From Opitutales bacterium (GTDB lineage: Bacteria > Verrucomicrobiota > Verrucomicrobiia > Opitutales > Oceanipulchritudinaceae), in the NCBI GenBank assembly GCA_020831485.1, contig JAFIGG010000137.1, positions 1 to 38,714 on the forward strand: a DNA stretch of 38,714 bases, written 5' to 3'. This document shows, piece after piece, positions 14,991-38,714 of this stretch. A program made the translations under genes and the position numbers. Each line of letters opens with the position of its first letter. Position 1 is the stretch's first letter. The notes under the pieces were generated by a model that was not told the origin of the DNA, did not search any database, and saw only the letters and a list, made by a program, of their open reading frames with translations.

Positions 14991-14993
14991 AAA

Positions 14994-15010: not shown

Positions 15011-15065
15011 GTCTCAACCGAACCATCAACAGCCAAAACGACAAATTGCTCAAAGAGGTGACAGA

Positions 15066-16442: not shown

Positions 16443-16515
16443 CCGAAATACCACTACCTGGCTGTCGTCACAACATCCTTGACCACTACCCTAAAGCCTG
16501 AGGAATCCGCAACCA
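16439..16515 (+). pseudogene. Remnant of a third csx17 5' end
   Basis: GTG 16439 begins VTEIPLPGCRHNILDHYPKA, closely like the start of csx17b (IRLPGCRHDILGHHLKAWGI). The codon matching Trp is TGA here, and similarity ends after GGAATCCG. The gene was coupled by GTGA overlap to the Bro gene, just as csx17b is coupled to KilA-N. Confidence 0.7.
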
Positions 16516-16703
16516 AAAACCTTCCACCCAAAGCAGCACAGGCCGCGACACAACTGAGCTCGTCGAAGGCCAGCCTGTGCCTTTCCACCGAAGAAAACAT
16601 GCACGCTGCCTGTTCTACGTCAGCCAAGCCAACCTCCAACCCATACAAGCATCATGTACTGCATCACCGGAATGACCACTGACCTCGAACGCCGCAGAAT
16701 ACA
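16516..16703. other. Gap with dispersed palindrome debris before cas3b
   Basis: No gene is recognised. It holds a split palindrome, GCACAGGC (16535-16542) and GGCCAGCCTGTGC (16568-16580), and a further fragment GCTGCCTGTTCTAC (16605-16618) of the same dispersed family. Confidence 0.45.
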
Positions 16704-19520: not shown

Positions 19521-20353
19521 TGAAAAAGAAATCCTCAAAAGCAAAAATCAATGTCCGGGGCACCGAGATCGCCGTCATCCATCGTGGCGATGAAGATTTC
19601 ATCTCCCTCACGGATATGCTCAAGGCCAAGGACGGGGATTTCTTCATTTCCGACTGGCTGCGCAACCGAAATACTGTGGAGTTCCTCGGCATCTGGGAGA
19701 CCGTCCACAACCCTGATTTTAATTCCGGCGAATTCGCCACAATTAAAAGTCAGGCCGGTCTCAACAGTTACAAGCTAAGTGTGAAGGAGTGGGTGGAAAA
19801 AACAAACGCCATGGGTCTGCAAGCTAAAGCCGGACGCTACGGTGGCACTTACGCCCACCGCGATATAGCATTTGAGTTCGGAATGTGGATCAGCCCTGAA
19901 TTCAAAATTTACCTAATTAAGGAATTCCAACGCCTCAAAGAAGACGAAAACCGACGCCTCGATCTCGCATGGAACCTCAACCGAACCCTCGCCAAAATCA
20001 ACTACCGCATCCACACCGACGCCATCCAGAGCCACCTCATTCCACCTGAAGTCACAGCGAAACAAGCCGCCCTCACCTATGCCTCGGAAGCTGACCTACT
20101 GAACGTGGCTCTCTTTGGTCAGACCGCCGGTGAGTGGCGCAAAGCTAATCCCGGAAAAGGCGGCAATATGCGCGACCACGCCAGCCTCGAACAACTCCTT
20201 GTCCTCGCCAATCTGGAAAATATGAATGCGGAGTTCATCCATATGGGGCTCCCCCAGTCCGACCGCCTCAAGCGCCTAAACGCCATCGCCATTCGGCAGA
20301 TGCAAACCCTCACCGCGCACGCCAAAAACCTTCTGAAAGGAGACGGATCATGA
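19520..20353 (+). CDS. KilA-N domain protein
   Basis: The 277-aa protein carries an N-terminal KilA-N domain: ISLTDMLKAKDGDFFISDWL, then RNRNTVEFLGIWETVHNPDF, LSVKEWVEKTNAMGLQAKAG and RYGGTYAHRDIAFEFGMWIS. KilA-N is a DNA-binding domain of phage antirepressors and related proteins. The C-terminal half (LTYASEADLLNVALFGQTAG, LANLENMNAEFIHMGLPQ) is common in KilA-N proteins found as cargo in bacterial defence operons. It overlaps cas3b by 1 nt and csx17b by 4 nt (ATGA), so it is translated as part of the cas operon. A role in controlling the effector set, or in sensing phage antirepressors, is possible but unproven. Confidence 0.85.
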   Translation: MKKKSSKAKINVRGTEIAVIHRGDEDFISLTDMLKAKDGDFFISDWLRNRNTVEFLGIWETVHNPDFNSGEFATIKSQAGLNSYKLSVKEWVEKTNAMGLQAKAGRYGGTYAHRDIAFEFGMWISPEFKIYLIKEFQRLKEDENRRLDLAWNLNRTLAKINYRIHTDAIQSHLIPPEVTAKQAALTYASEADLLNVALFGQTAGEWRKANPGKGGNMRDHASLEQLLVLANLENMNAEFIHMGLPQSDRLKRLNAIAIRQMQTLTAHAKNLLKGDGS

Positions 20354-22653
20354 ACGATAAAGCTCGATCATCAGGTGCCCCTGACAAGGGTAATTCAATT
20401 CGACTTCCCGGCTGTCGCCACGATATCCTTGGCCACCACCTGAAGGCCTGGGGAATCCTTCGCGCCCTCCATAAGTGCGCTCCCTACGAACACCTCGACC
20501 ATGAGTCCGAAGGTTGGTGGGATCTCGACCAAGCGTGCTTTTGCCTAAGATCCTCTAAATATGATTCCATAGAAAAATTGGCTGAGTTCTTAGGGCATCA
20601 TTACCAACCGTCCAAGGTGATTAGCCCTTGGGACAAAGATATTGGCTACAAAACGAGCCCGGGTTCACCGCCGCATGAGGATGACTTAAGAATTGCAAGG
20701 TCTCTATCTGGCAGAATCCCCGCAACCAGCGGGGCAACGATCAAGCGCGCTAACTTCATCGAATTCCGAGATGAAGCCATATCGGTCAACGCTTATGATT
20801 TGGATTCCCTCGCATCAATTTTCATGTCTCGCAATTCCGACAACCCCGTCTTTCTGAATCGCGGAGCAGCTGGACGCGCACAAATGTTTCGAACCTACTG
20901 GGAATATATTCAGCAGATCGAGAAAGAAAGAAACAAGAGGAATGGCGGGAAGACAGCGACAATCGCCGAAAAATCAACCCTGGGTTCCGGAAGCCAAACG
21001 GGAACGAAGAAGGGGCGAGGTTCACCATTCTTCCCCGACGCCATCAAAACCTACAACAACGGGTCAAGTTGGGTGGTAGAAAGTTTCCCATTCAACGCCC
21101 TGGATTACATTCTCGCCGTGGAAGGAGCGCTGGCTCTTCGTGGCTCTGCCTCGAGAACGCTTGCTGCAAATAGTCGGCGATTCGCTGCATTTCCCTTTAT
21201 CGTCGAAACGGGTGACGACATGACCGACGACAGTGGTGAGATCAAAGGCACTGCTAAGGCCCTTTGGCTTCCGCTTTGGGACCGCCCCGTAAGTTACTCT
21301 GAACTAGCCTCTTTCGTCAGCGATGCGCAGTCCAGACTGCCCGGGAAGGAAGCCAAATTTTCATCGGAGTTTGCTCGTTCTCTCCGCAGTCAAGGTGTGG
21401 ATGCTGGGTTTGCCGCGTGGCAGGAATTCCGCTACAAAATGAAGGCCAGCCGAATTCCGTGGGTCTGCACGGGCAATTTCATCGGCAGGGAAGCGAGTGA
21501 CCGACCACTGTTGCTCACCGATGCCCTATCTCCTCTCGATGAATCTGCTTTCCTCGACCAATTCATCGAAAAGTGGAAAGGGGCTAAAATAGAAGCGTCC
21601 AGCCCGCACCACTACCGTGAAAGGGTGAATGCGGCCATTGAAAGTGCGATTATTTCACCGACCCCGGAAAATGCACTCGAAATTCTTGCGAAGGCTTTTG
21701 AAGCGGTGAAACAACTCGCTATGTCAAAGAACTTTCGAGACAAAACGCACGGAGCCCACTTCTTCCGACCGCTCCCTCAAGAACCTTGGAATGCGCTCCT
21801 TTCCGGCCTTGATGCGAGCCGGGAATTTCTCATTGCCCGGGCCTTGGCGAGCATGACAGGGCGCGAGAAGCAACCGAATGGGAAAGACTCGGAAGTGCAG
21901 CCCATGCTTGGATCGATTCTTCCGCTCAAACTGGGATCCTCCGGTTGGTATCTTTGGGAACAATCGCCACAAGCTGTTTGGACGGGATACGACTTGTATC
22001 ACGATCTGTCCAAAGTGCTACAACGTCGCTATCTGGATTCCCTTTTCGATCAGCTTCCCGCATTGCGATCCGTTCATCCCGCCCCGCTCGATGCGGTACT
22101 TGCCCTACTGCAAGGGGACCTCGATAATCACCAAATCTCCCGTTGGACTGAAGCCCTCAGCCTGATCGGGTGGCATCACCAGAGAAAAGAAGATGGCTCA
22201 TCTGATGAGGGGCCAAAGGCCGCCAACGATGACCGACTGGAACCATGGCACCCTGTAGCCATTCCTCCTGCCTATGCAGCTCTTCGAGGATTGCTGGAGG
22301 TCGAGTGCGAGTGGCAGGGAGCGAACTTCGCAATTTGGCAGAAACGGCGGTCCCGCATTCCTTTTGCTCTTCTTTGTCAACGCACACCGGGTGCTGTTTC
22401 GAGAGCGGTATCTGAGAGTCTTCATCGGCTATCCATCTGGGGCGTCATCAACCCCGATAAGGAATCGCGCAATGAATCGCAACGCCTTCAGGGCAAGTCC
22501 ATCATCCGGCCCCAAGCATTCCAGATTCAGTCGGACGAAGCCAGCCGCCTCGCTGCCGTCGTCTGCGTCCCTCTCGTCTGGAAAGACCAATCTCAACTCT
22601 ACTGGGAAATCACCATCCCCACGAAAACACAAACAAAGGAACCAGCATTATGA
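20350..22653 (+). CDS. csx17: Type I-G Cascade large subunit Csx17, copy b
   Basis: The 767-aa protein matches copy a in its landmarks: IRLPGCRHDILGHHLKAWGI near the start, KVISPWDKDIGY, NALDYILAVEGALALRGSAS, ALWLPLWDRPVS, THGAHFFRPLPQEPWNALLS and a closing SRLAAVVCVPLVW. The middle differs, with a basic insertion (EKERNKRNGGKTA) in place of the coiled coil of copy a. Overlaps of ATGA with KilA-N before and csb1b after show tight coupling inside effector set b. Two divergent large subunits could read different PAMs or resist different anti-CRISPR proteins; this is inference. Confidence 0.88.
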   Translation: MNDKARSSGAPDKGNSIRLPGCRHDILGHHLKAWGILRALHKCAPYEHLDHESEGWWDLDQACFCLRSSKYDSIEKLAEFLGHHYQPSKVISPWDKDIGYKTSPGSPPHEDDLRIARSLSGRIPATSGATIKRANFIEFRDEAISVNAYDLDSLASIFMSRNSDNPVFLNRGAAGRAQMFRTYWEYIQQIEKERNKRNGGKTATIAEKSTLGSGSQTGTKKGRGSPFFPDAIKTYNNGSSWVVESFPFNALDYILAVEGALALRGSASRTLAANSRRFAAFPFIVETGDDMTDDSGEIKGTAKALWLPLWDRPVSYSELASFVSDAQSRLPGKEAKFSSEFARSLRSQGVDAGFAAWQEFRYKMKASRIPWVCTGNFIGREASDRPLLLTDALSPLDESAFLDQFIEKWKGAKIEASSPHHYRERVNAAIESAIISPTPENALEILAKAFEAVKQLAMSKNFRDKTHGAHFFRPLPQEPWNALLSGLDASREFLIARALASMTGREKQPNGKDSEVQPMLGSILPLKLGSSGWYLWEQSPQAVWTGYDLYHDLSKVLQRRYLDSLFDQLPALRSVHPAPLDAVLALLQGDLDNHQISRWTEALSLIGWHHQRKEDGSSDEGPKAANDDRLEPWHPVAIPPAYAALRGLLEVECEWQGANFAIWQKRRSRIPFALLCQRTPGAVSRAVSESLHRLSIWGVINPDKESRNESQRLQGKSIIRPQAFQIQSDEASRLAAVVCVPLVWKDQSQLYWEITIPTKTQTKEPAL

Positions 22654-23687
22654 CAACCGACAACCAGAACATCACCATCGGGGGACTCACGATCCCCGCC
22701 AACTGCCGCCGCATCTTCATCACCGCCGAACTGGAACCATCCAACGGCGATCCGAGGATCCAGCCCACCGGATTCCCCGATCTGGGCCCCGTCCTCTACC
22801 CGGATCCTTCCGGCAAACACGGAAACATTTGCATTATCGAATCCGAAGCCTCCATGGCTAATCGGCTGGAGGAGGTTTGCTTCGCCAATAAATACGAAGG
22901 AACCCTTTCTGACACATTCACAGGTCTTCCTTATCTCCGGGCAGAAAAATCGAATGAGTTCAAAACAGCCTCAACTATCGACGGTCATCGATTTGCATCA
23001 GACTTCCTTGCCAAAGGGAAATCAGATTTTGGCACAGATAATGAAGCTACCCTTGCGGATTTCATAAAAACCTCGCTGGGCATGAGCAATGACGGCAAGA
23101 CCATGCCCATTGCCCGGGTACCAGAGGTATTTGAATTGGCAATGGGCCTGGATACGATGTCGCTAATCCACGGCTTTCAGGTCTCCAACGAGCAAATCTC
23201 GTTCGTTGGTCTCCGTCACCCCCGCGCCTTGACGGCATCGATCATCGGATTGAATGCGGAACGCGTCATCGTTCCGGGAATCAAGTTCAATGTCGGCCAA
23301 GTGGAAAGCGAATCAGGACAGGCCATTTTTCAGAAACAACGTATCACATGCAAATCGATCCAGGCGCGCTTCTCCGTAGACGTAGGGTTGCTTGCTTCTC
23401 TTCGTCTCGCCCCTGGCGAGATCGGCTTGCAGCAGGCTCGCCTTTCGCTGTTGCTTGCGCTTGGCTTATGGAAGATAGCCGCATTCTTGGACCGCTTGGA
23501 TGTGGAACTGAGCCTACGATCTGAATGCAAGCTCAAGTTGAAGGATGACGGAGCCATTTACCAAATCGACAAGGCGGAAGGGGTGCCATTCGATCCTAAA
23601 GAGATTCTGAAGATCGACATGCCCACCCAGATTACCTCAGCCGGCCTTCCACAAGAGCGGTCTCCATTGACTCTCAGATTTTCCTAA
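22650..23687 (+). CDS. csb1: Type I-G Cas7 backbone subunit Csb1 (GSU0053-type), copy b
   Basis: The 345-aa protein has the Csb1 signature IFITAELEPSNGDPRIQPTG, FPDLGPVLYP, IIESEASMANRLEEVCF, TGLPYLRA, SLIHGFQVSNEQIS, and RVPEVFELAMGLD, equivalent to the copy at 25444. Csb1 is the Cas7-like subunit that forms the helical backbone on the crRNA spacer. It starts inside the csx17b stop (ATGA) and is followed after 3 bases by csb2b. Confidence 0.9.
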   Translation: MTTDNQNITIGGLTIPANCRRIFITAELEPSNGDPRIQPTGFPDLGPVLYPDPSGKHGNICIIESEASMANRLEEVCFANKYEGTLSDTFTGLPYLRAEKSNEFKTASTIDGHRFASDFLAKGKSDFGTDNEATLADFIKTSLGMSNDGKTMPIARVPEVFELAMGLDTMSLIHGFQVSNEQISFVGLRHPRALTASIIGLNAERVIVPGIKFNVGQVESESGQAIFQKQRITCKSIQARFSVDVGLLASLRLAPGEIGLQQARLSLLLALGLWKIAAFLDRLDVELSLRSECKLKLKDDGAIYQIDKAEGVPFDPKEILKIDMPTQITSAGLPQERSPLTLRFS

Positions 23688-23690
23688 CGC

Positions 23691-25295
23691 ATGTGCACCA
23701 TAAAAATAGAATTACCCTGGGGGCGATACTATGCACATCCGTGGGGAATCAATCCGGTCCGCCTGAAAGAAGCGGAATGGCCGCCCAGTCCGTGGCGATT
23801 GCTCCGAGCAATCGCTGCAGCGTGGTTTCAGCAAAACCCAGGAAACAGCACTGATGATAATCTAGGCCACTTACTCGAACAGCTTGGGAGCGCACTACCA
23901 GAACTAGGTTTCCAGAGAATAGCTTTCGGCCATACAGCGCATTGGCAACCGAACTATGGAGCAGCGGACACTGCTGGAAAAGCGTCCTTTACCTATAAGA
24001 AAACGCGACACGAAAACCACTTCGTCGCCGTCTCCAGCCCTATCTTTTTTCGATGGCCCAATCTGGAACTGACAACTCAACAGGCCCAACTGCTTGCTAC
24101 CATCCTTCCTCACATTTCCTACTTCGGGCGGGCAGAGTCCATCTGTCAAATGAGCCTCGAGAACAATATTCCGAACGGCCTTGGCTGGGCGATCCCTTGC
24201 TTACAAGATGGTCGGCCCATTCGGAAAATGGGTGAAGACTGCCGCGATGTCTTCTGTCCGGATCCGGAAGACTTCCAAGTTGCCGATCTTTGGAGCCTTC
24301 GAGAAAGCCGCCCCCCCTCATGGGAGAATCAGCCCCAGAACCTTGTCGATCAGATTCTGTCCAAGCAGCTCCTGCCGGACGGTGCCTGCTGGGTGACCTA
24401 CCAAATGCCGCAAGGCTGGCCAAACAAGTGGATAGTCCGCGTGCCAAAATCGGAAAAGCCGAAAAGACTCATGTCTGCAAAACCCATCGCCCACACCCTC
24501 CGCTTTTCCTTGGAATGCCGGATCGGCATCCCTCTCAAAGCCACGGTGGATGTAGCCGAGCTCTTTCGGCAATCGGCGATCAAGCGATTCAAACAAACGC
24601 ACGGTGCCGACGCCCACAGCTTCGCTCTCTCCGGGCATGAGCCGAAGCCAGAGGGCGTTTCCGGCGATCACCAGCACGCCCACTTCCTCCCGCTCCCCGA
24701 GGGAGTTTCCCATTCAGGAAACATCAGCGAACTCTACGTGTGGGCACCCAGCGGCCTAACCCAAGTCGAAATCGAGGCACTTATGCAGGTAAAGACACTT
24801 CATTGGGGAGCTTCGAAACATCCGATCCGCCCTGTTCTCACCGCTATCGACCAACAGCCGCCTTCGTTTCTTTCACAAAAACCCGCTAAAATCTGGCAAT
24901 CCCTCACTCCTTTTGTTCCACCTCGTCACTTCTATCGGGGCAATCTGCATGGCGCAAAGCTTAAGCAAAAGGACTCCCCCGAAAACCAGTTGGCCAAAGA
25001 GATTGAGCGTCTCGGAATCGAGACCCCTTTCGCTGTTTCCCGCATCCCGCTTAACAGATTTGGCGATCGTTCCGAAACGTCTCAGTGTTATTGGGATATC
25101 GTTCGAACACCGGGTGAAGCACCCGCCTTTGAGGATTCGATGCTCACCGATATCCACTCCAACCGTAACGCAAAGGAGCGACGCATCGGTTTTATGTTTG
25201 ATATTCAATTCGAACAACCCGTGTCCCTTGTCCGCCCCCTCGGCCACTCCTCCCACTTCGGGCTCGGCCTCTTCGCTCCCGTCATCGAAAAGTAA
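23691..25295 (+). CDS. csb2: Type I-G Cas5-Cas6 fusion Csb2 (GSU0054-type), copy b
   Basis: The 534-aa protein begins IKIELPWGRYYAHPWGINPV and EWPPSPWRLLRAIAAAW, the Csb2 N-terminal (Cas5-like) signature, has a central SGDHQHAHFLPLPEGVSHSG, and ends in a Cas6-like glycine-rich loop VRPLGHSSHFGLGLFAPV. Csb2 should cut the repeat hairpin of the pre-crRNA and cap the 5' handle in Cascade. Compared with copy a the histidine segment and the strand after it are altered (HAHFLPLPEG against HCYYLPTDENGDG), so repeat recognition or cleavage could differ. A 148-bp gap with two dispersed palindromes separates it from csb1a and marks the right edge of effector set b. Confidence 0.9.
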   Translation: MCTIKIELPWGRYYAHPWGINPVRLKEAEWPPSPWRLLRAIAAAWFQQNPGNSTDDNLGHLLEQLGSALPELGFQRIAFGHTAHWQPNYGAADTAGKASFTYKKTRHENHFVAVSSPIFFRWPNLELTTQQAQLLATILPHISYFGRAESICQMSLENNIPNGLGWAIPCLQDGRPIRKMGEDCRDVFCPDPEDFQVADLWSLRESRPPSWENQPQNLVDQILSKQLLPDGACWVTYQMPQGWPNKWIVRVPKSEKPKRLMSAKPIAHTLRFSLECRIGIPLKATVDVAELFRQSAIKRFKQTHGADAHSFALSGHEPKPEGVSGDHQHAHFLPLPEGVSHSGNISELYVWAPSGLTQVEIEALMQVKTLHWGASKHPIRPVLTAIDQQPPSFLSQKPAKIWQSLTPFVPPRHFYRGNLHGAKLKQKDSPENQLAKEIERLGIETPFAVSRIPLNRFGDRSETSQCYWDIVRTPGEAPAFEDSMLTDIHSNRNAKERRIGFMFDIQFEQPVSLVRPLGHSSHFGLGLFAPVIEK

Positions 25296-25336
25296 TGCTC
25301 TCTACCATCTTTAAACTTCCACCCAAACCAACCGCA

Positions 25337-25421
25337 AACAGGCAAACCGCCTGTTCTACTTCAACAATCCATCAACCAGCCGACACTCACCCAAATTAGC
25401 ACAGGCACCCAGCCAGTGCTG
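25337..25421. repeat. Two dispersed palindromes at the right edge of effector set b
   Basis: AACAGGC-AAACC-GCCTGTT-CTAC (25337-25359) and TAGCACAGGCACCCAGCCAGTGCTG (in two parts across 25397-25421) belong to the same family as 14994 and 16535 at the left edge. Confidence 0.6.
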
Positions 25422-25422
25422 A

Positions 25423-26409
<987 letters not shown>

Positions 26410-26428
26410 AAACGAACCACCCAGACAC

Positions 26429-28039
26429 ATGACAGCCATTGAACTCACTTTTCCTGCCGGGCGCTTCCACGCAACGCCGTGGGGGCGTCACGTGAACGAA
26501 GGTGCCGTTGAATGGCCGCCGTCACCGTGGCGTTTACTCCGTGCGCTCGTCGCAACCTGGAAACGCAAAGCGCCTCAGCTCGACGAGCATGCCATGCGCG
26601 AGCTGTTGACGATCCTGTGCGAAGCTCCGGAGTTTTTTCTGCCGCCGGCAACCTTCGGGCATACCCGACATTACATGCCTTGGTATAAAAAGGGCCCTGG
26701 CGATAAAACGCTGGTCTTCGATTCCTTCGTCGCTGTCGAAAAATCCGCGCCGGTGCGGATTTTCTGGCCGAATGTGGACCTGACCCAAACCCAGCGGGGC
26801 ATTCTCGACGAGCTGCTACCTCTGCTTGGCACGCTCGGTCGTGCCGAAAGTTGGTGCGAAGGAAAGTTGCTGACTCCTGACGAAACAGCTTCCGTTCAAA
26901 GCCGCATCAATTGTCGGCCACTCAATGGAGAGGCGCCCAAAGGCGAAACGGTTCGCCTCCTCGGCGTCGATCCGGAAACGGCTTTCAGCTCCGACCAAAA
27001 CCCAAAGCACGAAACAACCAGCGGGCGCGGGAAAGCGAAGACAACGGTGGTTACTCCCCTCTACGAGCCCAACTGGCACCTCTGTATCGAAACCCTCTGG
27101 ATGCACCAAAACCGATGGTCCCAGCCTCCCGGAGCGACTTGGATCGACTATGACCGCTCCAAGGACGCCCTCGCCCAACCGAAGCGACGCGTCGTCCATC
27201 AAAAAATCCGTCCACCCATGCAAGTTGCCCGTTTCGCCCTCGACTCCACCGTTTTGCCGCTGGCGACCGATACTCTTCGCGTCGCGGAATCCGCCCGCAT
27301 CGCCCTCATGAGCCTTTACGGCCGACGCACCCAAGTTGGCGACGAGAGGGGCAAGTCCCGTATCTTCTCTGGGAAAGAAGCGGATGGCATGCCTATCAAA
27401 GGTCACCGCCACTGTTATTACCTGCCCACCGATGAAAACGGCGATGGAAAGCTCGACCACCTGACGCTCTACGCCGCCGACGGCTTCGGACCCGACGAAC
27501 TGCGAGCAATCGATTCCCTGCGCGAGATCCATACCAAGGATACGCAAGACTCCGGCCATCCGCTTGGAGTCGTCCTGCTCGGAATGGGTGTCGCAGCGGA
27601 ATTTCAACCCGCCCCCATGAAACCTTCGAAGGATTGGCTTTCCGCCACACCCTTCATTTCGCCCCGTCATCCGAAAACACGGGGCAGGAATAAGGAACCC
27701 GAGGAGCATTTAGCCAATCCGGCTCGCTTCCTTGAAGCGCAACTACGTATCGAAGTCGAACGCTGGATCCAACTGACAGGACAGGAAGTCGACCCTGCAG
27801 AAGTCGAAATCACCCCTTTTGTTGATGCCTCAGGCAACTTTCGCGCGCCTGACAGAGACAGAGCTCCAAACGGCAAGCGCCCTATTCAGTTTCGGCGGTT
27901 CCGCCAGAAAAGAAATGACGACGGCGGTCGCCGAGCAAGCGGCTTTTTCCGCCTCCGCTTCCCCGCTCCTGTTCCCGGTCCCATCGCCCTCGGCCATTCC
28001 TGCCACTTTGGCCTCGGGCTGTTTATTCCCCCCGAATGA
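26429..28039 (+). CDS. csb2: Type I-G Cas5-Cas6 fusion Csb2, copy a
   Basis: The 536-aa protein starts IELTFPAGRFHATPWGRHVN and EWPPSPWRLLRALVATW (Cas5-like part). It has the conserved GHRHCYYLPTDENGDGKLDH segment followed by LTLYAADGF, and ends with the Cas6-like glycine-rich loop GPIALGHSCHFGLGLFIPPE. It should process pre-crRNA at the repeat hairpin and hold the 5' end in Cascade. It follows csb1a by 19 bases. Confidence 0.93.
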   Translation: MTAIELTFPAGRFHATPWGRHVNEGAVEWPPSPWRLLRALVATWKRKAPQLDEHAMRELLTILCEAPEFFLPPATFGHTRHYMPWYKKGPGDKTLVFDSFVAVEKSAPVRIFWPNVDLTQTQRGILDELLPLLGTLGRAESWCEGKLLTPDETASVQSRINCRPLNGEAPKGETVRLLGVDPETAFSSDQNPKHETTSGRGKAKTTVVTPLYEPNWHLCIETLWMHQNRWSQPPGATWIDYDRSKDALAQPKRRVVHQKIRPPMQVARFALDSTVLPLATDTLRVAESARIALMSLYGRRTQVGDERGKSRIFSGKEADGMPIKGHRHCYYLPTDENGDGKLDHLTLYAADGFGPDELRAIDSLREIHTKDTQDSGHPLGVVLLGMGVAAEFQPAPMKPSKDWLSATPFISPRHPKTRGRNKEPEEHLANPARFLEAQLRIEVERWIQLTGQEVDPAEVEITPFVDASGNFRAPDRDRAPNGKRPIQFRRFRQKRNDDGGRRASGFFRLRFPAPVPGPIALGHSCHFGLGLFIPPE

Positions 28040-28751: not shown

Positions 28752-29513
28752 ATGATCCACCCTCTTCGCATTCAAATCGATGACAGGGAGCGCAATCTAG
28801 ATCTGCACGCAGCACTGCGCAAGATGGATGGGGTTGAGATAGAATGTGTGCGGCTTGAAATCGGGGATTTTCGGATTGAGGATGCAGTTGTTGTAGAGAG
28901 AAAAACAGCAGCCGACTTTGCTGCTTCGATCGTCGACGGGCGGCTGTTCTCCCAGGCTTCACGTATGGTGGGATCGCCCCTGCGACCAGCTTATATAATC
29001 GAGGGAACCGCAAGCGATTGGCAATCCCTCAAGGTCAAACGGCCTGCATTGCAAGGTGCCCTGATTTCTCTAATGCTTGTGTTTGATATTCCCGTGCTGC
29101 GATCCGATAGTCCTGAAGAAACCGCCCGTCTGGCGTGCTATACGGGACAGCAACTGATACGGGCACGCGGTGACGGTTGCGTTCCTATTCGGCAAATCAA
29201 GACAAAACGTAGATCGACGCGTCAGAGCCGCATTCTTCAATCTCTGCCTGGAATTGGCCCAGATCGCGCTAGGTGCCTGCTGGAACATTTTGGCAGCGTC
29301 CGCGCCTGCCTTTCCGCAGATGTTGAGCAACTCACGGAGATCAACGGCATCGGTCCAACTACTGCACGGAAAATTGTCGAGACCGTAGAGGAAAAACAAG
29401 CCCGCTACGGAACCCTATATGGGGAAGAAGCCTTTACCTCACCTCTGCCGCTTTTTAAAAACACCACTCACTCGCTCCCAAATGTAAAAATATTTGACAT
29501 TTTCTCAGTCTAA
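28752..29513 (+). CDS. ERCC4/XPF-type nuclease with helix-hairpin-helix motifs
   Basis: The 253-aa protein has an ERCC4 nuclease domain with the catalytic pattern D11-RER, G38-D39-F and E49-R50-K51 (VVVERKTAADFAASI), followed by GRLFSQASRM. The C-terminal part contains two helix-hairpin-helix motifs (ILQSLPGIGPDRARCLLEHF and LTEINGIGPTTARKIVETV), as in XPF/Mus81/Hef nucleases, which cut branched or 3'-flap DNA. GGAG before ATG 28752 supports this start. Bacterial proteins of this build are uncommon and are not a standard part of type I-G loci. Its position directly before cas4-cas1 and cas2 suggests a job in making or trimming DNA for spacer acquisition, or in repairing the integration site; this is inference. 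Confidence 0.85.
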   Translation: MIHPLRIQIDDRERNLDLHAALRKMDGVEIECVRLEIGDFRIEDAVVVERKTAADFAASIVDGRLFSQASRMVGSPLRPAYIIEGTASDWQSLKVKRPALQGALISLMLVFDIPVLRSDSPEETARLACYTGQQLIRARGDGCVPIRQIKTKRRSTRQSRILQSLPGIGPDRARCLLEHFGSVRACLSADVEQLTEINGIGPTTARKIVETVEEKQARYGTLYGEEAFTSPLPLFKNTTHSLPNVKIFDIFSV

Positions 29514-29553: not shown

Positions 29554-31422
29554 ATGCAAACTTCATCCGCAGCAACCGACCTTTTACCAGCGCGGATGGT
29601 GAATGAGTTCGTTTACTGCCCGAGGCTGTTTTACTACGAGTTTGTCGAGGGAATTTTCATTCACAATGCGGATACGCTTGAAGGGAAGGCCCAACACAAG
29701 CGTCAGGATTCAGGCAAAGGAGCCATGCCGCAGACGACTGCGGAGGGAGAACCCGAGGTGATTCATTCTCGCTCGGTTTCGTTGTTTTCAGATCTGCTGG
29801 GAGTCACCGCGAAACTGGATGTAGTGGAAACGCATACCAATGCCTCGGAAGGTGGTGCCGTTGCTATTCCGGTCGAATACAAAAAGGGCGCACCGCGCGA
29901 AGGAGAAGACGGCAAGGAGCTTTGGGATACCGATCGCATTCAATTGGGATTACAGATTCTGCTCTTGCGGGAGAACGGCTACAGCTGTGACGAGGGAATT
30001 GTCTATTACCGCGAGACCCGTCAGAGGGTGCGCTACGAAATGACGGAGGAGGAAGCCGACTGGATACGCACTACCCTGAGCGCCGTCCGTCGCTGCACCA
30101 AAGGCCCGATGCCGCCTCCACTGGACCACTCTGTCAAATGTCCCCGGTGCTCGCTGGTTTCCATCTGCCTGCCGGATGAAACACGTTTACTGAAACCGGA
30201 ACCGGATCTATCCGAACTAAGCGATACCCAATTGGCATTTCCTTTCCAGGAACTGCTGGATACCGGAAGCAATGGGAAAAACGGGAATCCGGACGCCAAA
30301 GGACTCAGCTTCCCCTACGGCCTCATTCCCGAAATCCGAATCCCAAAGCTGAAGGCGGGTGAGGATGTGCGGCGACTGATCGCGCCTAATCCGGAAACCC
30401 GGGCCTTGTATTTGAATACGGCCGGTCACTTCGTGGGCAAGAAGGATGAATGCCTGGTGGTGAAAGAAAAAGGCAAGAGCATCGGCGAATTTCGGCTGAA
30501 AGACCTGCACCACGTCGCACTTTTTGGTCCGGTCCAAATCTCGACTGCGGTTGTGCATATCTTGTGCGAACGCGACATTCCCATCAGCTATTTTTCGATG
30601 GGTGGTTGGTTCTACGGCATGACCCGCGGCCACAGCCTCAAAAACGTTTTCACCCGCATTGAACAATTCAATACCGCAGGAGATCCGGAAAAATCCCTAC
30701 CACTGGCCCGGCTGATGGTGCACGGCAAGATTCGCAACCAGCGCACCCTGCTCATGCGCAATCATGTCGAACTCGGCAAAGGCGTCGCCCGCGCCCTGAA
30801 ATACTTTTCCTCCCGCGCCCTGAGCGCCACCAGCACGGGATCCTTGCTGGGGCTTGAGGGCAATGCGGCGGCCCTGTATTACGCTCACTTCGCGGGGATG
30901 ATCAAATCGGATGAAGATCGCGGGGATGACGACACCGATCAACTGAAACTCAACTTCGACTTCGACGGCCGCAACCGACGGCCACCCCGGGATCCGGTCA
31001 ATGCCCTGTTGTCGCTGACCTACAGTCTACTGGTGAAAGACTGCACCCTTGCCGCATATTCCGTGGGACTCGACCCTTACATAGGCTTCTACCATCAGCC
31101 CCGTTTCGGCAAACCCGCGATGGCGCTCGACCTGATGGAAGAATTCCGGCCGCTGATTGCCGACTCGGTCGTGCTGACACTGATTAACCAGAAGCGCATC
31201 CGGACCAGAGATTTCATCACCGCCGGCAAGTCAGTCGGTCTGACCCCCAGCGGCCGCAAGGCCGTCTTTCATGCCTATGAGCAGCGCATGTCGGACGGCA
31301 TCACCCACCCCGTCTTCGGATACAAGGTCAGCTACCGTCGCGCGCTGGAACTGCAAGTTCGACTGCTTGCCAAAACACTCACCGGGGACATCGAACAATA
31401 CGTCCCATTCATGACCCGCTGA
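29554..31422 (+). CDS. cas4-cas1: Cas4-Cas1 fusion (type I-G adaptation)
   Basis: The 622-aa protein joins Cas4 (about residues 1-215) to Cas1 (about 275-622). Cas4 has the four iron-sulfur cysteines C22 (FVYCPR), C196, C199 and C205 (KCPRCSLVSIC) and the RecB-type nuclease motifs (KLDVVET, PVEYKKG, QLGLQILLL). Cas1 has the catalytic E435 (LLGLEGNAAALYY), H514 (GFYHQPRFGKPA) and D526/E529 (ALDLMEEFRP). A proline- and asparagine-rich linker joins them. The fusion is characteristic of type I-G, where it picks prespacers with a correct PAM and integrates them with Cas2. All key residues are present, so it looks active. cas2 starts 8 bases after its stop. Confidence 0.95.
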   Translation: MQTSSAATDLLPARMVNEFVYCPRLFYYEFVEGIFIHNADTLEGKAQHKRQDSGKGAMPQTTAEGEPEVIHSRSVSLFSDLLGVTAKLDVVETHTNASEGGAVAIPVEYKKGAPREGEDGKELWDTDRIQLGLQILLLRENGYSCDEGIVYYRETRQRVRYEMTEEEADWIRTTLSAVRRCTKGPMPPPLDHSVKCPRCSLVSICLPDETRLLKPEPDLSELSDTQLAFPFQELLDTGSNGKNGNPDAKGLSFPYGLIPEIRIPKLKAGEDVRRLIAPNPETRALYLNTAGHFVGKKDECLVVKEKGKSIGEFRLKDLHHVALFGPVQISTAVVHILCERDIPISYFSMGGWFYGMTRGHSLKNVFTRIEQFNTAGDPEKSLPLARLMVHGKIRNQRTLLMRNHVELGKGVARALKYFSSRALSATSTGSLLGLEGNAAALYYAHFAGMIKSDEDRGDDDTDQLKLNFDFDGRNRRPPRDPVNALLSLTYSLLVKDCTLAAYSVGLDPYIGFYHQPRFGKPAMALDLMEEFRPLIADSVVLTLINQKRIRTRDFITAGKSVGLTPSGRKAVFHAYEQRMSDGITHPVFGYKVSYRRALELQVRLLAKTLTGDIEQYVPFMTR

Positions 31423-31430: not shown

Positions 31431-31721
31431 ATGCGACGCAGCTTCATAGTTACCTACGACATTCGCGACGACAAGCGCCTGCGCAAAGTTTTCAAGACCT
31501 GCAAAGGCTACGGCATCCATCTTCAATACTCTGTGTTCGAATGCGACCTAACGACCATGGAACGCGCCGAATTCGAGGCCAAGCTGAAGGAAGTCATGCA
31601 CCAGAATGAAGACCAAGTTCTCTTCATCGACCTCGGCCCAGTCGCCCAACGCTGCGAGCGCACCATTACCGCCCTCGGCCAAGCCTACAGCCGCATAGAC
31701 GACCCCTGTTTTGTCGTCTAA
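31431..31721 (+). CDS. cas2: Cas2
   Basis: The 96-aa protein begins RRSFIVTYDIRDDKRLRKVF, the ferredoxin-like Cas2 start, and continues KTCKGYGIHLQYSVFECDLT and QVLFIDLGPVAQRCERTITA. The length is normal for the family. Cas2 forms the bridge between Cas1 dimers in spacer integration. GAGGAAAACC before the ATG provides a ribosome-binding site. It is the last gene before the array. Confidence 0.96.
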   Translation: MRRSFIVTYDIRDDKRLRKVFKTCKGYGIHLQYSVFECDLTTMERAEFEAKLKEVMHQNEDQVLFIDLGPVAQRCERTITALGQAYSRIDDPCFVV

Positions 31722-31942
31722 CCCCAACAAACCTTTTCAGGTTCTTTGACAGTTTCTTCGTTTGCGAGCGTCCAGATACGAAGCTGAACCCAGGACACGC
31801 TCGCAACAACTGATAACCAACGAGTTGCACACCAATCAACTGCAATTACCGAAGACAAATAGTTCAAAAATCCACCCAGCCTGTAAATGGCTCGACATCC
31901 GCCTCCGTAATGCTTGATTATCAACAGGCTGCAGTAGCCGCT
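31722..31942 (+). promoter_or_regulatory. CRISPR leader
   Basis: This 221-bp non-coding stretch lies between cas2 and the first repeat, where leaders of + oriented arrays sit. It contains TTGACA (31746-31751) without a convincing -10 at standard spacing, and a long-range inverted repeat GCGAGCGT (31764-31771) / ACGCTCGC (31797-31804). The last bases, CAACAGGCTGCAGTAGCCGCT, resemble the dispersed palindrome family. Promoter and Cas1-Cas2 docking roles are expected from position only. Confidence 0.65.
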
Positions 31943-34900
31943 CATTCCGCGCTTGAAAAAGCGCGGCTCCATTGAAGCAGACACTAACACCGAAGAACAG
32001 TCAAGCCCGGACACATTCCGCGCTTGAAAAAGCGCGGCTCCATTGAAGCCCGCAAATACGCCGCAAGGGCGGAAATGATTTCGGGACCATTCCGCGCTTG
32101 AAAAAGCGCGGCTCCATTGAAGCATTGCCTTCATCAACTCTTCGGTTGTCATCTTTTTCATTCCGCGCTTGAAAAAGCGCGGCTCCATTGAAGCTTGCTG
32201 TGAAAAATGCTAAGCGCCTCTTCGGGGGTCATTCCGCGCTTGAAAAAGCGCGGCTCCATTGAAGCTAGCGACGCATGGCTGCACTGCATGAGCTTGGGCG
32301 TCATTCCGCGCTTGAAAAAGCGCGGCTCCATTGAAGCATTGGTTGGTTCGCTTCCGGCGGATGGGTGTCTTTTCATTCCGCGCTTGAAAAAGCGCGGCTC
32401 CATTGAAGCTCCTAATTTTCAAAATATGTTTACGGATGCATCTGCATTCCGCGCTTGAAAAAGCGCGGCTCCATTGAAGCGTCCTCTCAATGGAGATACC
32501 ACCGGAAAAGATGCTCTCATTCCGCGCTTGAAAAAGCGCGGCTCCATTGAAGCCCGTTTTGGGTAAGCCTACACCCCACCCGTTTCTTCATTCCGCGCTT
32601 GAAAAAGCGCGGCTCCATTGAAGCTTAAAATTTCCTACGAGTGACGACTTTTCGGCGGGACATTCCGCGCTTGAAAAAGCGCGGCTCCATTGAAGCTTCA
32701 CTGCTCGACCTCCCACCCGTTGAGGCGGCAAATCATTCCGCGCTTGAAAAAGCGCGGCTCCATTGAAGCATTTCCACGCCCAGCCCAACCACCTTCAGCG
32801 CCGCTGCATTCCGCGCTTGAAAAAGCGCGGCTCCATTGAAGCGCCGTTTTCCGCAGCCCTTAGAAGAGAGTCTTCAAGCATTCCGCGCTTGAAAAAGCGC
32901 GGCTCCATTGAAGCGATGTATTTCTCAGTATCGTTCATGATCGCTGAGAGCCATTCCGCGCTTGAAAAAGCGCGGCTCCATTGAAGCGCTTCTAATCGCT
33001 TTACTGGCGTTCAGTCGTCGAGGTCATTCCGCGCTTGAAAAAGCGCGGCTCCATTGAAGCTTGCGAACGTCAGTCGTCAGCGGCCTCTACCCGCTGACAT
33101 TCCGCGCTTGAAAAAGCGCGGCTCCATTGAAGCCACTGAGAGTCCCTCCAGCGGCAGGTCAGCGTCTTCGAGCATTCCGCGCTTGAAAAAGCGCGGCTCC
33201 ATTGAAGCTTATTATGTTTCTGGTGCACCCCGGATGCTTACCCCATTCCGCGCTTGAAAAAGCGCGGCTCCATTGAAGCCACTCGGGCCAACCGATGCGC
33301 CTTTGAATCCGTGGACATTCCGCGCTTGAAAAAGCGCGGCTCCATTGAAGCAATAAACTGATCCCTAATCGCATTGTAATCGCGCCCATTCCGCGCTTGA
33401 AAAAGCGCGGCTCCATTGAAGCGACGGATGCCACGATGTCGTCACCACCTGCCGTTGCATTCCGCGCTTGAAAAAGCGCGGCTCCATTGAAGCCAGGTGG
33501 GGGTTTGCGGAAAAAAGCGGTGCCGAGGCCCCATTCCGCGCTTGAAAAAGCGCGGCTCCATTGAAGCTTCACATCATCGCCTTATAGCGACGGCGACGCA
33601 GTTGCATTCCGCGCTTGAAAAAGCGCGGCTCCATTGAAGCGACAATGCGGGCAACGAGCTTGTGTTGGGGCAGTATCATTCCGCGCTTGAAAAAGCGCGG
33701 CTCCATTGAAGCATGTTTCCGCTGGGGTCCATTGTGATGCTGGTATTCATTCCGCGCTTGAAAAAGCGCGGCTCCATTGAAGCGGCAGTTTTGCGTGCCC
33801 TTTCACGGCGTGCCAAGCTCATTCCGCGCTTGAAAAAGCGCGGCTCCATTGAAGCCAGCTCCGCTTTGCTCGGAAGCTCCATGCCTTTAAGCATTCCGCG
33901 CTTGAAAAAGCGCGGCTCCATTGAAGCAGCGTGTCCTTGCCTGCCTCAATGTCTGGTTTCAATGGCATTCCGCGCTTGAAAAAGCGCGGCTCCATTGAAG
34001 CCATTCATCCTCTGGAATTGGGGTCCAGCGGATACCACATTCCGCGCTTGAAAAAGCGCGGCTCCATTGAAGCTTCAGTAAGCAAATCTCGGCAGTATTC
34101 TTTCAACGACCATTCCGCGCTTGAAAAAGCGCGGCTCCATTGAAGCGAGGTCCACGAGCCTAAGACCCGCACCGTGCACGCCATTCCGCGCTTGAAAAAG
34201 CGCGGCTCCATTGAAGCAACTACAATAACACACTCAAACACCAAAAACAAATACCATTCCGCGCTTGAAAAAGCGCGGCTCCATTGAAGCTGGTTGCCTC
34301 CCGCCACCAATCCCGGGCCTTCTTGGCATTCCGCGCTTGAAAAAGCGCGGCTCCATTGAAGCCATTGAGGAGGTCCCGTAGGGCCTCGGCACCGCTTTCA
34401 TTCCGCGCTTGAAAAAGCGCGGCTCCATTGAAGCTAGTCATGGGCGCGCATAATGAGAACTTACACGGTCATTCCGCGCTTGAAAAAGCGCGGCTCCATT
34501 GAAGCCGGCCTTTGCGCGTGACCCCGGGCATCCGTGAGAGCATTCCGCGCTTGAAAAAGCGCGGCTCCATTGAAGCGCCGGTAATCAACGCGATCTTGCG
34601 CGTCTTACCCCGCCCATTCCGCGCTTGAAAAAGCGCGGCTCCATTGAAGCTTGCTTGGGCGTCAATACCCTGAGCACCCCGCAATCATTCCGCGCTTGAA
34701 AAAGCGCGGCTCCATTGAAGCGGCTGTTCTTGCAGGTGCGGACCAGTGAAGACACAGCCATTCCGCGCTTGAAAAAGCGCGGCTCCATTGAAGCGCTCGC
34801 TCCTCCCCTCAGTGCTTCTAGGTTCCAATTGCATTCCGCGCTTGAAAAAGCGCGGCTCCATTGAAGCCGATGTCCCGCGTGAAATGCGAATACTCGGCAG

Positions 34901-37900
34901 AGGGCATTCCGCGCTTGAAAAAGCGCGGCTCCATTGAAGCCTGAAATCCGCGAATGCAACGGTTGGAGGTTCGTCCATTCCGCGCTTGAAAAAGCGCGGC
35001 TCCATTGAAGCTTCCCACGGGTCACTTTCCCGTTCCAGTTCATCCCCATTCCGCGCTTGAAAAAGCGCGGCTCCATTGAAGCCAGACGAAAGCAAGTCAA
35101 TCGCCGAAAAAGTCGCTGCATTCCGCGCTTGAAAAAGCGCGGCTCCATTGAAGCAAATGAGAGGGCCAAAATGTTTTGATCCTCCGTGAAGCATTCCGCG
35201 CTTGAAAAAGCGCGGCTCCATTGAAGCGGAGAGGCATCGGGAGCACGATTTCGATTGCTTCGGCATTCCGCGCTTGAAAAAGCGCGGCTCCATTGAAGCA
35301 AAGCTTGGCAGAGAAGACCTTATAGGTTTTCGCAGGCACATTCCGCGCTTGAAAAAGCGCGGCTCCATTGAAGCTTGAAATCACAGGAGCAAAGGAGGCG
35401 GCACAAGAGCCCATTCCGCGCTTGAAAAAGCGCGGCTCCATTGAAGCTTTTACTCGCCGGCGTTGTCCGTCGTGCCATGCCGCATTCCGCGCTTGAAAAA
35501 GCGCGGCTCCATTGAAGCAATGGCGCAAAGATCATCTCCTCCGAAACGCCAAGAGCATTCCGCGCTTGAAAAAGCGCGGCTCCATTGAAGCAAATGAGAG
35601 GGCCAAAATGTTTTGATCCTCCGTGAAGCATTCCGCGCTTGAAAAAGCGCGGCTCCATTGAAGCGGAGAGGCATCGGGAGCACGATTTCGATTGCTTCGG
35701 CATTCCGCGCTTGAAAAAGCGCGGCTCCATTGAAGCAAAGCTTGGCAGAGAAGACCTTATAGGTTTTCGCAGGCACATTCCGCGCTTGAAAAAGCGCGGC
35801 TCCATTGAAGCTGGTTCTAGGGGCAAGCTTCACCGAATTTGAAAGTTCATTCCGCGCTTGAAAAAGCGCGGCTCCATTGAAGCTTGAAATCACAGGAGCA
35901 AAGGAGGCGGCACAAGAGCCCATTCCGCGCTTGAAAAAGCGCGGCTCCATTGAAGCTTTTACTCGCCGGCGTTGTCCGTCGTGCCATGCCGCATTCCGCG
36001 CTTGAAAAAGCGCGGCTCCATTGAAGCAATGGCGCAAAGATCATCTCCTCCGAAACGCCAAGAGCATTCCGCGCTTGAAAAAGCGCGGCTCCATTGAAGC
36101 GATTCCTTTGCGCCGGAGTTTGGCAATGAGATGGGCATTCCGCGCTTGAAAAAGCGCGGCTCCATTGAAGCAAGCACTACCTGGAAGGTTGTGACTTGCC
36201 CTCTATCCATTCCGCGCTTGAAAAAGCGCGGCTCCATTGAAGCATTTCGGTCAACCGCACAATTGAGAGCATCGGCAGGGCATTCCGCGCTTGAAAAAGC
36301 GCGGCTCCATTGAAGCGTGTTTGAGTGTGTTATTGCGTGTGGCCTACCGCAACCATTCCGCGCTTGAAAAAGCGCGGCTCCATTGAAGCTTGATCCGTAT
36401 GGCTCGCGGTGGCCGCACGGTTGTCATTCCGCGCTTGAAAAAGCGCGGCTCCATTGAAGCATGGCTGGGTTCAGGCATCCTTTCAAAATCTTCAATCCAT
36501 TCCGCGCTTGAAAAAGCGCGGCTCCATTGAAGCTGAGTCGCTCGCGTGAGTGTTCACTTTCCTCGTTGACATTCCGCGCTTGAAAAAGCGCGGCTCCATT
36601 GAAGCGCCTGAGCGCAGAGAAGGATACTCAATCAAGATTGCATTCCGCGCTTGAAAAAGCGCGGCTCCATTGAAGCCCCAACGTTGGCAAACCCGTCGGC
36701 AATTATCCGACGCCATTCCGCGCTTGAAAAAGCGCGGCTCCATTGAAGCCTTTTTCTGCTTGCAATCGGTGCGCTGTTTGGCAACATTCCGCGCTTGAAA
36801 AAGCGCGGCTCCATTGAAGCGTGGCTGATGGAGCGGGATGCATCGGCGGCGGTATCCATTCCGCGCTTGAAAAAGCGCGGCTCCATTGAAGCATCATCAG
36901 CTCGTTTACAGATGCGCTGGATTCCGTCATTCCGCGCTTGAAAAAGCGCGGCTCCATTGAAGCATGGACTCCAGCTCCAGACAGCTTTGTGCAAAACGGC
37001 ATTCCGCGCTTGAAAAAGCGCGGCTCCATTGAAGCGACACCATTTGCCCATAGAGTTATCTCTTCATTGACATTCCGCGCTTGAAAAAGCGCGGCTCCAT
37101 TGAAGCAATCTATTGGGCGACAACGAAGGACGGCCGCCTGATCATTCCGCGCTTGAAAAAGCGCGGCTCCATTGAAGCTACGGGCGATCATATTGCCCGT
37201 TTCGTGCTCAATGGCATTCCGCGCTTGAAAAAGCGCGGCTCCATTGAAGCGCTGAGGATTTGAGCGGCGGGAATAACGATTTCGCGCATTCCGCGCTTGA
37301 AAAAGCGCGGCTCCATTGAAGCTCGCTGTTCCTGCCTGACCTCCGATTGTAGCAAGCATTCCGCGCTTGAAAAAGCGCGGCTCCATTGAAGCCTCTTTAT
37401 GGTCCGGCAAGTCGTTAAGCTCTTGAGGCATTCCGCGCTTGAAAAAGCGCGGCTCCATTGAAGCGCTGAGATGGTGAAACCCAGCCGCGAACCTGTGCCA
37501 CCCATTCCGCGCTTGAAAAAGCGCGGCTCCATTGAAGCAACGACAATTTCTCGCAATCACATAAAACACTTACGGCATTCCGCGCTTGAAAAAGCGCGGC
37601 TCCATTGAAGCATTGCTTCGAGTTGCGCCTGACGCTCTCTTGCCCGGCATTCCGCGCTTGAAAAAGCGCGGCTCCATTGAAGCAAGACCACGCTACCTAC
37701 AGGGCACACAGGATACTTCCAGCATTCCGCGCTTGAAAAAGCGCGGCTCCATTGAAGCTAGGAGAGGACTGGCTGGGTGTTGGCGACCTCGGGCAGCATT
37801 CCGCGCTTGAAAAAGCGCGGCTCCATTGAAGCTTTTACTTCTTCAGGTGTCATTGTTTTTCCTTATCACATTCCGCGCTTGAAAAAGCGCGGCTCCATTG

Positions 37901-38714
37901 AAGCACTCAGACCATTTCAAATGCTGGAATAGTTCAGGGCCATTCCGCGCTTGAAAAAGCGCGGCTCCATTGAAGCGGTTCTCGTCGCTGTCCAGTAGTT
38001 GAAACGTGATGACCATTCCGCGCTTGAAAAAGCGCGGCTCCATTGAAGCGTTGCCAACCAGTCAAAAGCCCTTGACCGGTCGAATCATTCCGCGCTTGAA
38101 AAAGCGCGGCTCCATTGAAGCGGCCCTGAATCCTGAATTCCTGAATCAGCATTTTCCGCATTCCGCGCTTGAAAAAGCGCGGCTCCATTGAAGCTAAATT
38201 CCCAACCAACTTGAAAGCGGTCAAAAGTCCATTCCGCGCTTGAAAAAGCGCGGCTCCATTGAAGCTCCTGTTGATTGGTTTTGGGGGTCTCGTGGTTATT
38301 CATTCCGCGCTTGAAAAAGCGCGGCTCCATTGAAGCCACCGGCCATAAGGATGATACTGGCGGCGCTGGCGGCCATTCCGCGCTTGAAAAAGCGCGGCTC
38401 CATTGAAGCCCCGAATCCGGTTTGCGTCCTCGCCTCCGGGCGAACATTCCGCGCTTGAAAAAGCGCGGCTCCATTGAAGCCGTTGCGCTTTTGGCCAGCA
38501 ATGGACCGTAAATCATCATTCCGCGCTTGAAAAAGCGCGGCTCCATTGAAGCTTGCCCTCCTCCTTCGGGGATGCAGGCGCAAGGTTTCATTCCGCGCTT
38601 GAAAAAGCGCGGCTCCATTGAAGCTCTTCTGTGGTTTCCATAAATCAGTCCTCATCCTGCATTCCGCGCTTGAAAAAGCGCGGCTCCATTGAAGCGAACA
38701 TCTGGAGCTGATAC
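31943..38714 (+). CRISPR. CRISPR array: 94 repeats of 36 bp, 93 complete spacers, open at the right edge
   Basis: The repeat starts CATTCCGCGCTTG and ends GCTCCATTGAAGC. Repeats begin at 31943, 32014, 32088 ... 38589, 38660, with an average period of about 72 bp. All copies I read are identical, including the last one, so the distal end lies beyond the window; 19 bp of a 94th spacer remain. Spacers are 34-39 bp. The repeat centre is a perfect 8-bp hairpin, CCGCGCTT-GAAA-AAGCGCGG, a good Cas6-type (Csb2) substrate. The ATTGAAGC end is typical of the 3' end of repeats and gives an 8-nt 5' handle, so I orient the array +, with the newest spacers next to cas2. The open frames across the array on either strand are repeat artefacts. 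Confidence 0.99.
35155..36100. repeat. Tandem duplication of a spacer block inside the array
   Basis: Spacers A (35155), B (35228), C (35300), E (35375), F (35448) and G (35519) recur in the same order at 35592, 35665, 35737, 35884, 35957 and 36028. The second copy has one additional spacer D (35812-35847) between C and E. The copies are 437 and 509 bp long, differing by exactly one 72-bp spacer-repeat unit. Confidence 0.97.

Follow-up and report, generated by a model that had tools for sequence, protein, structure and literature searches.

The type I-G CRISPR locus analysed in this work raises the question of whether an XPF/Hef-type nuclease gene located directly ahead of its adaptation genes is a required part of spacer acquisition or an accessory gene carried by the locus. 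The DNA under study, hereafter the window, is a contig of 38,714 bases from an Opitutales bacterium of the phylum Verrucomicrobiota, and in its I-G locus, two effector sets are combined with a single cas4-cas1 fusion, a single cas2, and a long CRISPR array (Table 1). A first-pass annotation, made from the sequence without database searches, had placed the nuclease gene directly before cas4-cas1 and cas2. Our analyses bear out this placement: the three genes are located on the same strand, with gaps of 40 bp between the nuclease gene and cas4-cas1 and of 8 bp between cas4-cas1 and cas2, and a gap of 45 bp separates the nuclease gene from an upstream ORF of 213 aa. Both the nuclease gene and this ORF begin with an ATG at the first positions given in Table 1, and GAGGAG is present ahead of the ATG of the nuclease gene. 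No promoter was found between the nuclease gene and cas4-cas1 by a consensus scan. By its coordinates, the nuclease gene is located in the interval between csb2 (csb2a) and cas4-1.

Table 1. Coordinates and supporting matches of the features of the type I-G CRISPR locus in the window
Feature	Coordinates	Strand	Evidence
I-G effector set A, first part (cas3a, csx17a)	9905–14813 (cas3a 9905–12565; csx17a 12567–14813)	+	TIGR02621 2.7e-224; TIGR04113 2.1e-184
I-G effector set B (cas3b, KilA-N, csx17b, csb1b, csb2b)	16704–25295 (cas3b 16704–19520; KilA-N 19520–20353; csx17b 20350–22653; csb1b 22650–23687; csb2b 23691–25295)	+	
I-G effector set A, second part (csb1a, csb2a)	25444–28039 (csb1a 25444–26409; csb2a 26429–28039)	+	TIGR02570 4.2e-32; TIGR02165 5.9e-49
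ORF without family match between csb2a and nuclease, 213 aa	28065–28706	+	No Pfam, PADLOC or PHROGs match
ERCC4-(HhH)2 (XPF/Hef-type) nuclease gene, 253 aa	28752–29513	+	Pfam, NCBIfam and PDB matches; AlphaFold model; fold search; intact catalytic motif
cas4-cas1 fusion (type I-G)	29554–31422	+	NF049935 708.7 bits
cas2	31431–31721	+	TIGR01573 1.3e-11; PF09827 2.5e-21
CRISPR array, repeat about 36 nt, period about 72	31900–38714		Direct repeats; reaches contig end

The two effector sets are nested, set B, preceded by a RhuM gene, being located between csx17a and csb1a of set A (9905–28039), and they share a single adaptation module in the window. The score of csb1b is just below the NCBIfam cut-off and above the Pfam cut-off. 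The I-G proteins of one relative (G046, C43) are closer to set A, and one csb2 of another (G024) is closer to csb2b. In and around the cas genes are also found a DUF1016/YhcG nuclease (7662–8822), RhuM (15009–16124), and KilA-N, the proteins of which match the PADLOC candidate-defence models PDC-S02, PDC-S05, and PDC-S22. A 17-bp palindrome, ACAGGCTGNCAGCCTGT, is present at 14994–15010, where the RhuM gene that follows csx17a begins, and at 19472–19488, near the end of cas3b; these are its only two sites genome-wide (with at most 1 mismatch), and a looser copy is located at 25393, ahead of csb1a. The CRISPR array contains internal duplications of about 250 nt each, in which both the repeats and the spacers are identical (35118–35375 and 35555–35812; 35339–35591 and 35848–36100).

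The assignment of the nuclease is based upon several comparisons. Its residues 9–129 match the Pfam domain ERCC4 (PF02732) above the cut-off (3.2e-28) and its residues 160–211 match HHH_5 (1e-14); the latter match and the helices at residues 154–215 of an AlphaFold model (pLDDT 79, pTM 0.57) confirm the two HhH motifs, in tandem, that the earlier annotation had recognized. XPF from Aeropyrum pernix (2bhn/2bgw) is matched over residues 6–209 (phmmer, about 4e-24), and the best NCBIfam model is that for the C-terminal nuclease part of Hef, with 172 bits vs. a family cut-off of 610. A fold search with the model gave XPF, Hef, and Mus81 as the top PDB matches. The nuclease domain superposes on that of Hef from Pyrococcus furiosus (1j22–1j25) with an rmsd of 1.3 Å over 134 alignment columns, whereas the whole chain deviates from XPF by >10 Å, which is read as an unsure domain orientation in the model. 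The GDX(n)ERKX3D motif, with an upstream D..RE, is complete when aligned to XPF and Hef. Residues D10, R12, E13, D39, E49, R50, K51, and D55, which we take to be the expected active-site residues of the XPF family, are among those that are invariant in nine aligned sequences. The claim that the catalytic residues are intact thus stands for D39 and E49-R50-K51 but has to be corrected for D11, which is a variable neighbor of the conserved aspartate, D10. As judged from these matches, the gene encodes a stand-alone bacterial XPF/Hef-type protein, in which an ERCC4 nuclease is joined to tandem HhH motifs without a helicase, and the identification as a structure-specific nuclease of this type is upheld. 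XPF/Hef enzymes are structure-specific and prefer branched DNA, and the most likely predicted activity of the protein is the cutting of branched DNA near ss/ds junctions, e.g., at 3' flaps.

The window nuclease was compared with the closest known proteins. The short archaeal XPF of A. pernix has the same domain order without a helicase, the same catalytic motif, and 29–31% identity over the aligned range; the window protein, unlike it, is bacterial, and its residues 217–253 are predicted at low confidence. Archaeal XPF carries a PCNA-binding motif. A clamp-binding tail was considered for the window nuclease and rejected, as no motif common to the tails of the bacterial homologues was seen by eye. 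Hef differs in its possession of a helicase domain. The nuclease gene is the sole ERCC4 match in its genome, and its third-position GC content (48.8%) is the lowest among 16 window genes measured, the others ranging from 54.8 to 72.3%. This low value fits a late or recent arrival of the gene, but it is only suggestive and no proof.

A similar arrangement has been reported previously. In the type I-G system of Thioalkalivibrio sulfidiphilus HL-EbGr7, the legend to Figure 1 of a 2022 paper (NAR; PMC9638904) places a gene (WP_012638991.1), which that paper names xpf-like, between csb2 and cas4-1, i.e., in the same interval as in the window, and a function as a 3'-flap nuclease that processes prespacers is proposed there. 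According to the same legend, toxin-antitoxin genes share this interval in T. sulfidiphilus; in the window, it is without such genes and only the 213-aa ORF without a family match accompanies the nuclease. T. sulfidiphilus belongs to the Pseudomonadota, and the window to the Verrucomicrobiota. Since both the arrangement and the main inference of the first-pass annotation, viz. that the nuclease could trim prespacers, are described in this paper for a member of the Pseudomonadota, they are already published, and the window is a new example of a published arrangement from another phylum. In the openly licensed literature that was searched, PMC9638904 was the only paper joining XPF, type I-G, and CRISPR, and no test of an XPF-like nuclease in I-G prespacer processing was found.

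The published proposal corresponds to the first explanation to be weighed, namely that the nuclease is an adaptation accessory of a minority of I-G systems, which would trim prespacer flaps (e.g., the non-PAM 3' overhang) or resolve half-site integration intermediates for Cas4/1-Cas2. The location of the gene 40 bp ahead of cas4-cas1, its intact catalytic motif, and the independent case of T. sulfidiphilus, where the same proposal was made for the same interval (PMC9638904), are consistent with this explanation. Biochemical work on the I-G system of M. barkeri bears on it in two ways. In this study, which used Cas4/1 and Cas2, Cas1 trims the non-PAM end and Cas4 trims the PAM end in vitro, and the Cas4/1 module is termed self-sufficient (Dhingra and Sashital, PMC10274657); the processing of both prespacer ends by Cas4/1 argues against the involvement of a further nuclease. 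However, its authors allow that a further host factor may take part in activating Cas4 (PMC10274657), which is a point for the adaptation explanation.

Information regarding the slot before cas4-cas1 in related loci is also relevant to this question. The slot was compared in 11 I-G loci from a set of 55 relatives (10 with cas4-cas1 above the cut-off and that of G005), a count that describes this set rather than the whole order. An ERCC4 gene is present in 2 of the 11 loci, other ORFs occupy the slot in 5, and it is empty in 4 (two loci of G046 and those of G012 and G008). The two ERCC4 cases are the window (G000), with the 213-aa ORF and the nuclease, and G005, where homologues of both genes are followed by an ORF of 297 aa with no family match and by a broken cas4-cas1; as judged by eye, the G005 nuclease has a lysine at the position of E13 and has lost part of its HhH region. 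The decay of both nuclease and cas4-cas1 in this syntenic copy is a further point for the adaptation explanation. The five other occupied slots contain Fic, an ORF without a family, and an 847-aa 2OG-oxygenase protein (G001); a 2OG-oxygenase protein, a nucleotidyltransferase, and Wadjet genes, of which JetB, JetC, and JetD were confirmed (G002); an ORF with a PIN match just below the cut-off and a DUF6364 ORF (G024); a Phd antitoxin with a PIN toxin (G050); and an opposite-strand 192-aa ORF without a family along with a smaller ORF of doubtful coding status (G048). Hence, the nuclease gene is located beside cas4-cas1 in a minority of the loci of the subtype among the 55 relatives, one of its two copies being decayed, and the absence of the gene from the remaining 9, together with the acceptance by the slot of genes without an evident link to adaptation, argues against an adaptation role. 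Both the slot comparison and the co-occurrence counts given below are drawn from genomes of this phylum, many of them metagenome bins with short contigs.

Several other observations concern the genes in these slots. The 213-aa ORF shares 64% identity with its G005 homologue, which is found at the same place beside the nuclease, and weaker relatives are present in G016, G045, G019, and G004, with a second copy in G000. A two-gene cassette of this ORF and the nuclease was considered and rejected, as the four former genomes are without an ERCC4 match; the pair is therefore confined to G000 and G005 within the 55 relatives. Wadjet genes adjoin I-G cas4-cas1 in L138 (4144–9357; G002; JetB, JetC, and JetD) and in L012 (4551–11828; G005; JetA and JetD). 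A large 2OG-Fe(II) oxygenase of about 813–850 aa is found beside I-G cas4-cas1 in three genera (L139, 3467–6010; L138, 11714–14155; L012, 12678–15212); PF13640 is matched in all three, and the L139 protein also matches the PADLOC "CAS associated" 2OG model (8e-9).

The distribution of ERCC4 proteins was examined at different taxonomic ranks. Matches were found in 9 of the 55 relatives and, among the genomes sampled, in 20 of 372 from the order and 60 of 387 from the phylum. They were also found in 11 of 266 genomes of the Gammaproteobacteria (the class of a Pseudomonas genome), and an ERCC4-HhH match is present in 159 plasmid records, of which 136 are from Pseudomonas (large plasmids). The statement that XPF-family enzymes are mainly archaeal and eukaryotic thus needs to be softened. 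The plasmid match covers at least 80% of the nuclease in 146 of the 159 records; a few among the matches listed involve the HhH part only.

The plasmid records also bear upon another explanation, in which the nuclease would have an anti-plasmid or anti-phage function, or one in mobile-element repair, that is independent of CRISPR, its clustering with the cas genes being due to defence-island effects only. The abundance of plasmid-borne relatives and the matches of the RhuM, KilA-N, and DUF1016 proteins of the locus to candidate-defence models are in line with such a function; however, the nuclease itself has no PADLOC match, and in the two of the 159 plasmid neighborhoods that were looked at, the neighbors are almost all hypothetical proteins with no hint of defence. 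We regard this explanation as very improbable. A phage origin of the gene was also considered and rejected: none of the 55 pattern matches in viral contigs gave a relative, and the 10 phage records that matched, at <60% identity, comprise 7 from archaeal viruses, 2 in which uvrC is matched, and 1 without annotation.

The neighborhoods of other ERCC4 genes were searched with the Cas proteins of the window and a Cas1 panel, for which 18 of 20 queries were usable (the longest frames of L167 and L180 are unlike other Cas1s). The 98 loci that were taken gave 90 distinct loci after removal of 8 duplicate contigs; with the window excluded, they consist of 56 from this phylum, 32 from other phyla (many archaeal), and 2 from plasmids. 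Those from this phylum and from plasmids are a subset of the respective matches, and a few of the 90 are weak ERCC4 matches that belong to other subfamilies; those from other phyla came from a scan with two short peptide patterns, which diverged genes may escape, and T. sulfidiphilus is not among them. Only one of the 90 loci is located beside cas1, viz. the decayed, syntenic locus of G005, from the same family as the window, and one other is located near an I-G effector set, viz. that of G039, from the same order, which includes an I-G cas3. The G039 stretch starts at a contig end and has no cas4-cas1 within it, and it was not part of the slot count; its order is csb1 fragments (one matching TIGR02570 just below the cut-off), csb2 (2.1e-93), cas3 (9.9e-213), a Cas3-extension protein (2.1e-79), a nucleotidyltransferase-like ORF (below cut-offs), a 23S-IVP protein, and ERCC4. 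Weak cas3 matches in two archaeal records (L117 and L134; E about 1e-4) are read as probable general helicase similarity. With the same queries, cas genes were found near none of the 11 gammaproteobacterial ERCC4 loci, 10 of which are new, that of the centre genome (G696) sharing its contig with L119, which is among the 90. Thus, 2 of the 90 distinct loci are near I-G or Cas1 genes, a count that is no proof of absence elsewhere, since many neighborhoods end at contig ends.

By path length in a 48-row tree, the nearest relatives of the window nuclease are those of G446 and G436 (both cas-free), followed by that of G005 and then those of G430 and G252 (both cas-free). In this tree, the window nuclease groups with G446, G436, and G005 (support 95/77, below the starred threshold) and then with G430 and G252, and the three cas-linked rows do not form one group, three changes being needed, of which two are forced by well-supported branches. 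The solitary ERCC4-HhH genes of Opitutales genomes (L094/G436, L095/G430, and L060/G252) share 59–70% identity with the window nuclease and differ from it in having no match to the cas queries in their surrounding DNA, L095 and L060 being near contig ends; the L060 gene ends inside the second HhH. The closest relative, L153 9594–10064 (G446), has no N-terminal catalytic region and is probably a pseudogene.

The co-occurrence of ERCC4 and type I-G systems was examined at genome level. The csb2 gene is present in 22 of the 387 phylum genomes (20 above the cut-off), and ERCC4 is found in 4 of these 22 vs. 56 of 365 csb2-negative genomes (p = 0.76), or in 3 of 21 when the genome of the window is left out (p = 1.0); co-occurrence in the phylum sample is therefore not above chance. 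For Cas1 of any type, the numbers among the matches listed for the phylum are 36 of 60 ERCC4-positive vs. 163 of 327 other genomes (p = 0.16). Within the 55 relatives, I-G cas4-cas1 above the cut-off is present in 4 of 9 ERCC4-positive vs. 5 of 46 ERCC4-negative genomes (p = 0.031), or in 3 of 8 ERCC4-positive genomes without the window (p = 0.086). Addition of G005 and G039, which were recognized from their neighborhoods, gives p = 0.0034, a count that is biased because ERCC4-negative genomes were not inspected equally. Thus, no co-occurrence is seen across the phylum sample, and a suggestive one is seen among the relatives of the window. The three plasmid records listed with a tblastn match to the window Cas4-Cas1 (one Rhodothermus and two Cereibacter; 39–43% identity over 98–99% of the fusion) are not among the ERCC4 plasmid records listed.

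The absence of co-occurrence with csb2 in the phylum sample also argues against an interference accessory, which would process the branched DNA left by Cas3 (viz. R-loop flaps and forks that have stalled or collapsed), either on targets or on the chromosome of the cell itself, and would thereby limit self-damage or finish target destruction. The substrate preference of XPF/Hef enzymes, the Hef nuclease as the closest NCBIfam model by score, and the presence of the sole ERCC4 match of the genome within a locus with two Cas3 genes are compatible with such a function, which we nevertheless hold to be quite unlikely.

Taken together, these results bear on the co-occurrence check that had been put forward in the first-pass annotation, and they do not support the function inferred there: the sampled orthologues are nearly all located away from CRISPR loci, 9 of the 11 I-G cas4-cas1 loci compared are without the gene, and the phylum sample shows no excess of genomes with both ERCC4 and csb2. 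Neither of the two features that would define a dedicated I-G adaptation gene, viz. orthologues mainly at CRISPR loci and adjacency to cas4-cas1 in the majority of I-G loci, was observed, and a dedicated adaptation role is weakly supported. The orthologue distribution speaks against prespacer trimming or resolution of integration intermediates, and the T. sulfidiphilus xpf-like gene (PMC9638904), G039, and the suggestive co-occurrence among the relatives speak for it; on balance, we consider the role of an adaptation accessory to be rather unlikely.

The explanation that we favor, with slightly better than even confidence, is that the window nuclease is an accessory branched-DNA nuclease carried as cargo in the I-G locus. 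An accessory passenger is more likely than a required part, because the relatives of the gene mostly occur elsewhere, other I-G loci carry unrelated genes in the slot, and an xpf-like gene was reported from another bacterium in 2022 (PMC9638904). We infer that the XPF/Hef-type nuclease gene has spread horizontally as an accessory gene and that it arrived, together with the small ORF, in the interval that separates the effector genes from cas4-cas1, a slot with variable cargo. In related I-G loci, this slot holds Fic, 2OG oxygenase, nucleotidyltransferase, Wadjet, or PIN-type toxin genes, or nothing. The nuclease probably acts on branched or damaged DNA, in its own repair or anti-element role, and it would not be required for spacer acquisition, its function being presumably independent of Cas4/1-Cas2. 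Several observations count against this cargo explanation: the recurrence of an xpf-like gene in the same interval of T. sulfidiphilus (PMC9638904) and, in a looser sense, the G039 case make pure coincidence less likely; the co-occurrence in the relatives set points in the same direction; and the gene has the orientation of the operon, is separated from its neighbors by short gaps only, and encodes an intact active site. An ordinary reason for the recurrence is offered by the heterogeneous interval, which accepts defence and addiction genes. The cargo explanation is favored when the heterogeneous slot, the lowest third-position GC content, and the plasmid relatives are weighed against the T. 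sulfidiphilus and G039 cases.

These results also place the published proposal of XPF-like prespacer processing (PMC9638904) in the form of a comparison across lineages: members of two phyla have an XPF-like gene in this interval, but most of the I-G loci compared among the relatives of the window are without one, and in most sampled genomes that carry such a gene it is free-standing. We put forward tentatively, as a rather doubtful possibility, that type I-G loci of two or more phyla have taken up XPF-like nucleases on separate occasions, as optional accessories of adaptation or interference whose task is the processing of flaps or integration intermediates for Cas4/1-Cas2; if true, CRISPR would gain a branched-DNA nuclease of the eukaryotic and archaeal style. 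The comparison also points to the interval before I-G cas4-cas1 as one in which accessory and defence genes (viz. Fic, 2OG oxygenase, Wadjet, PIN toxins, and XPF) settle repeatedly, and it cautions against taking adjacency to cas1 as evidence of a role in adaptation.
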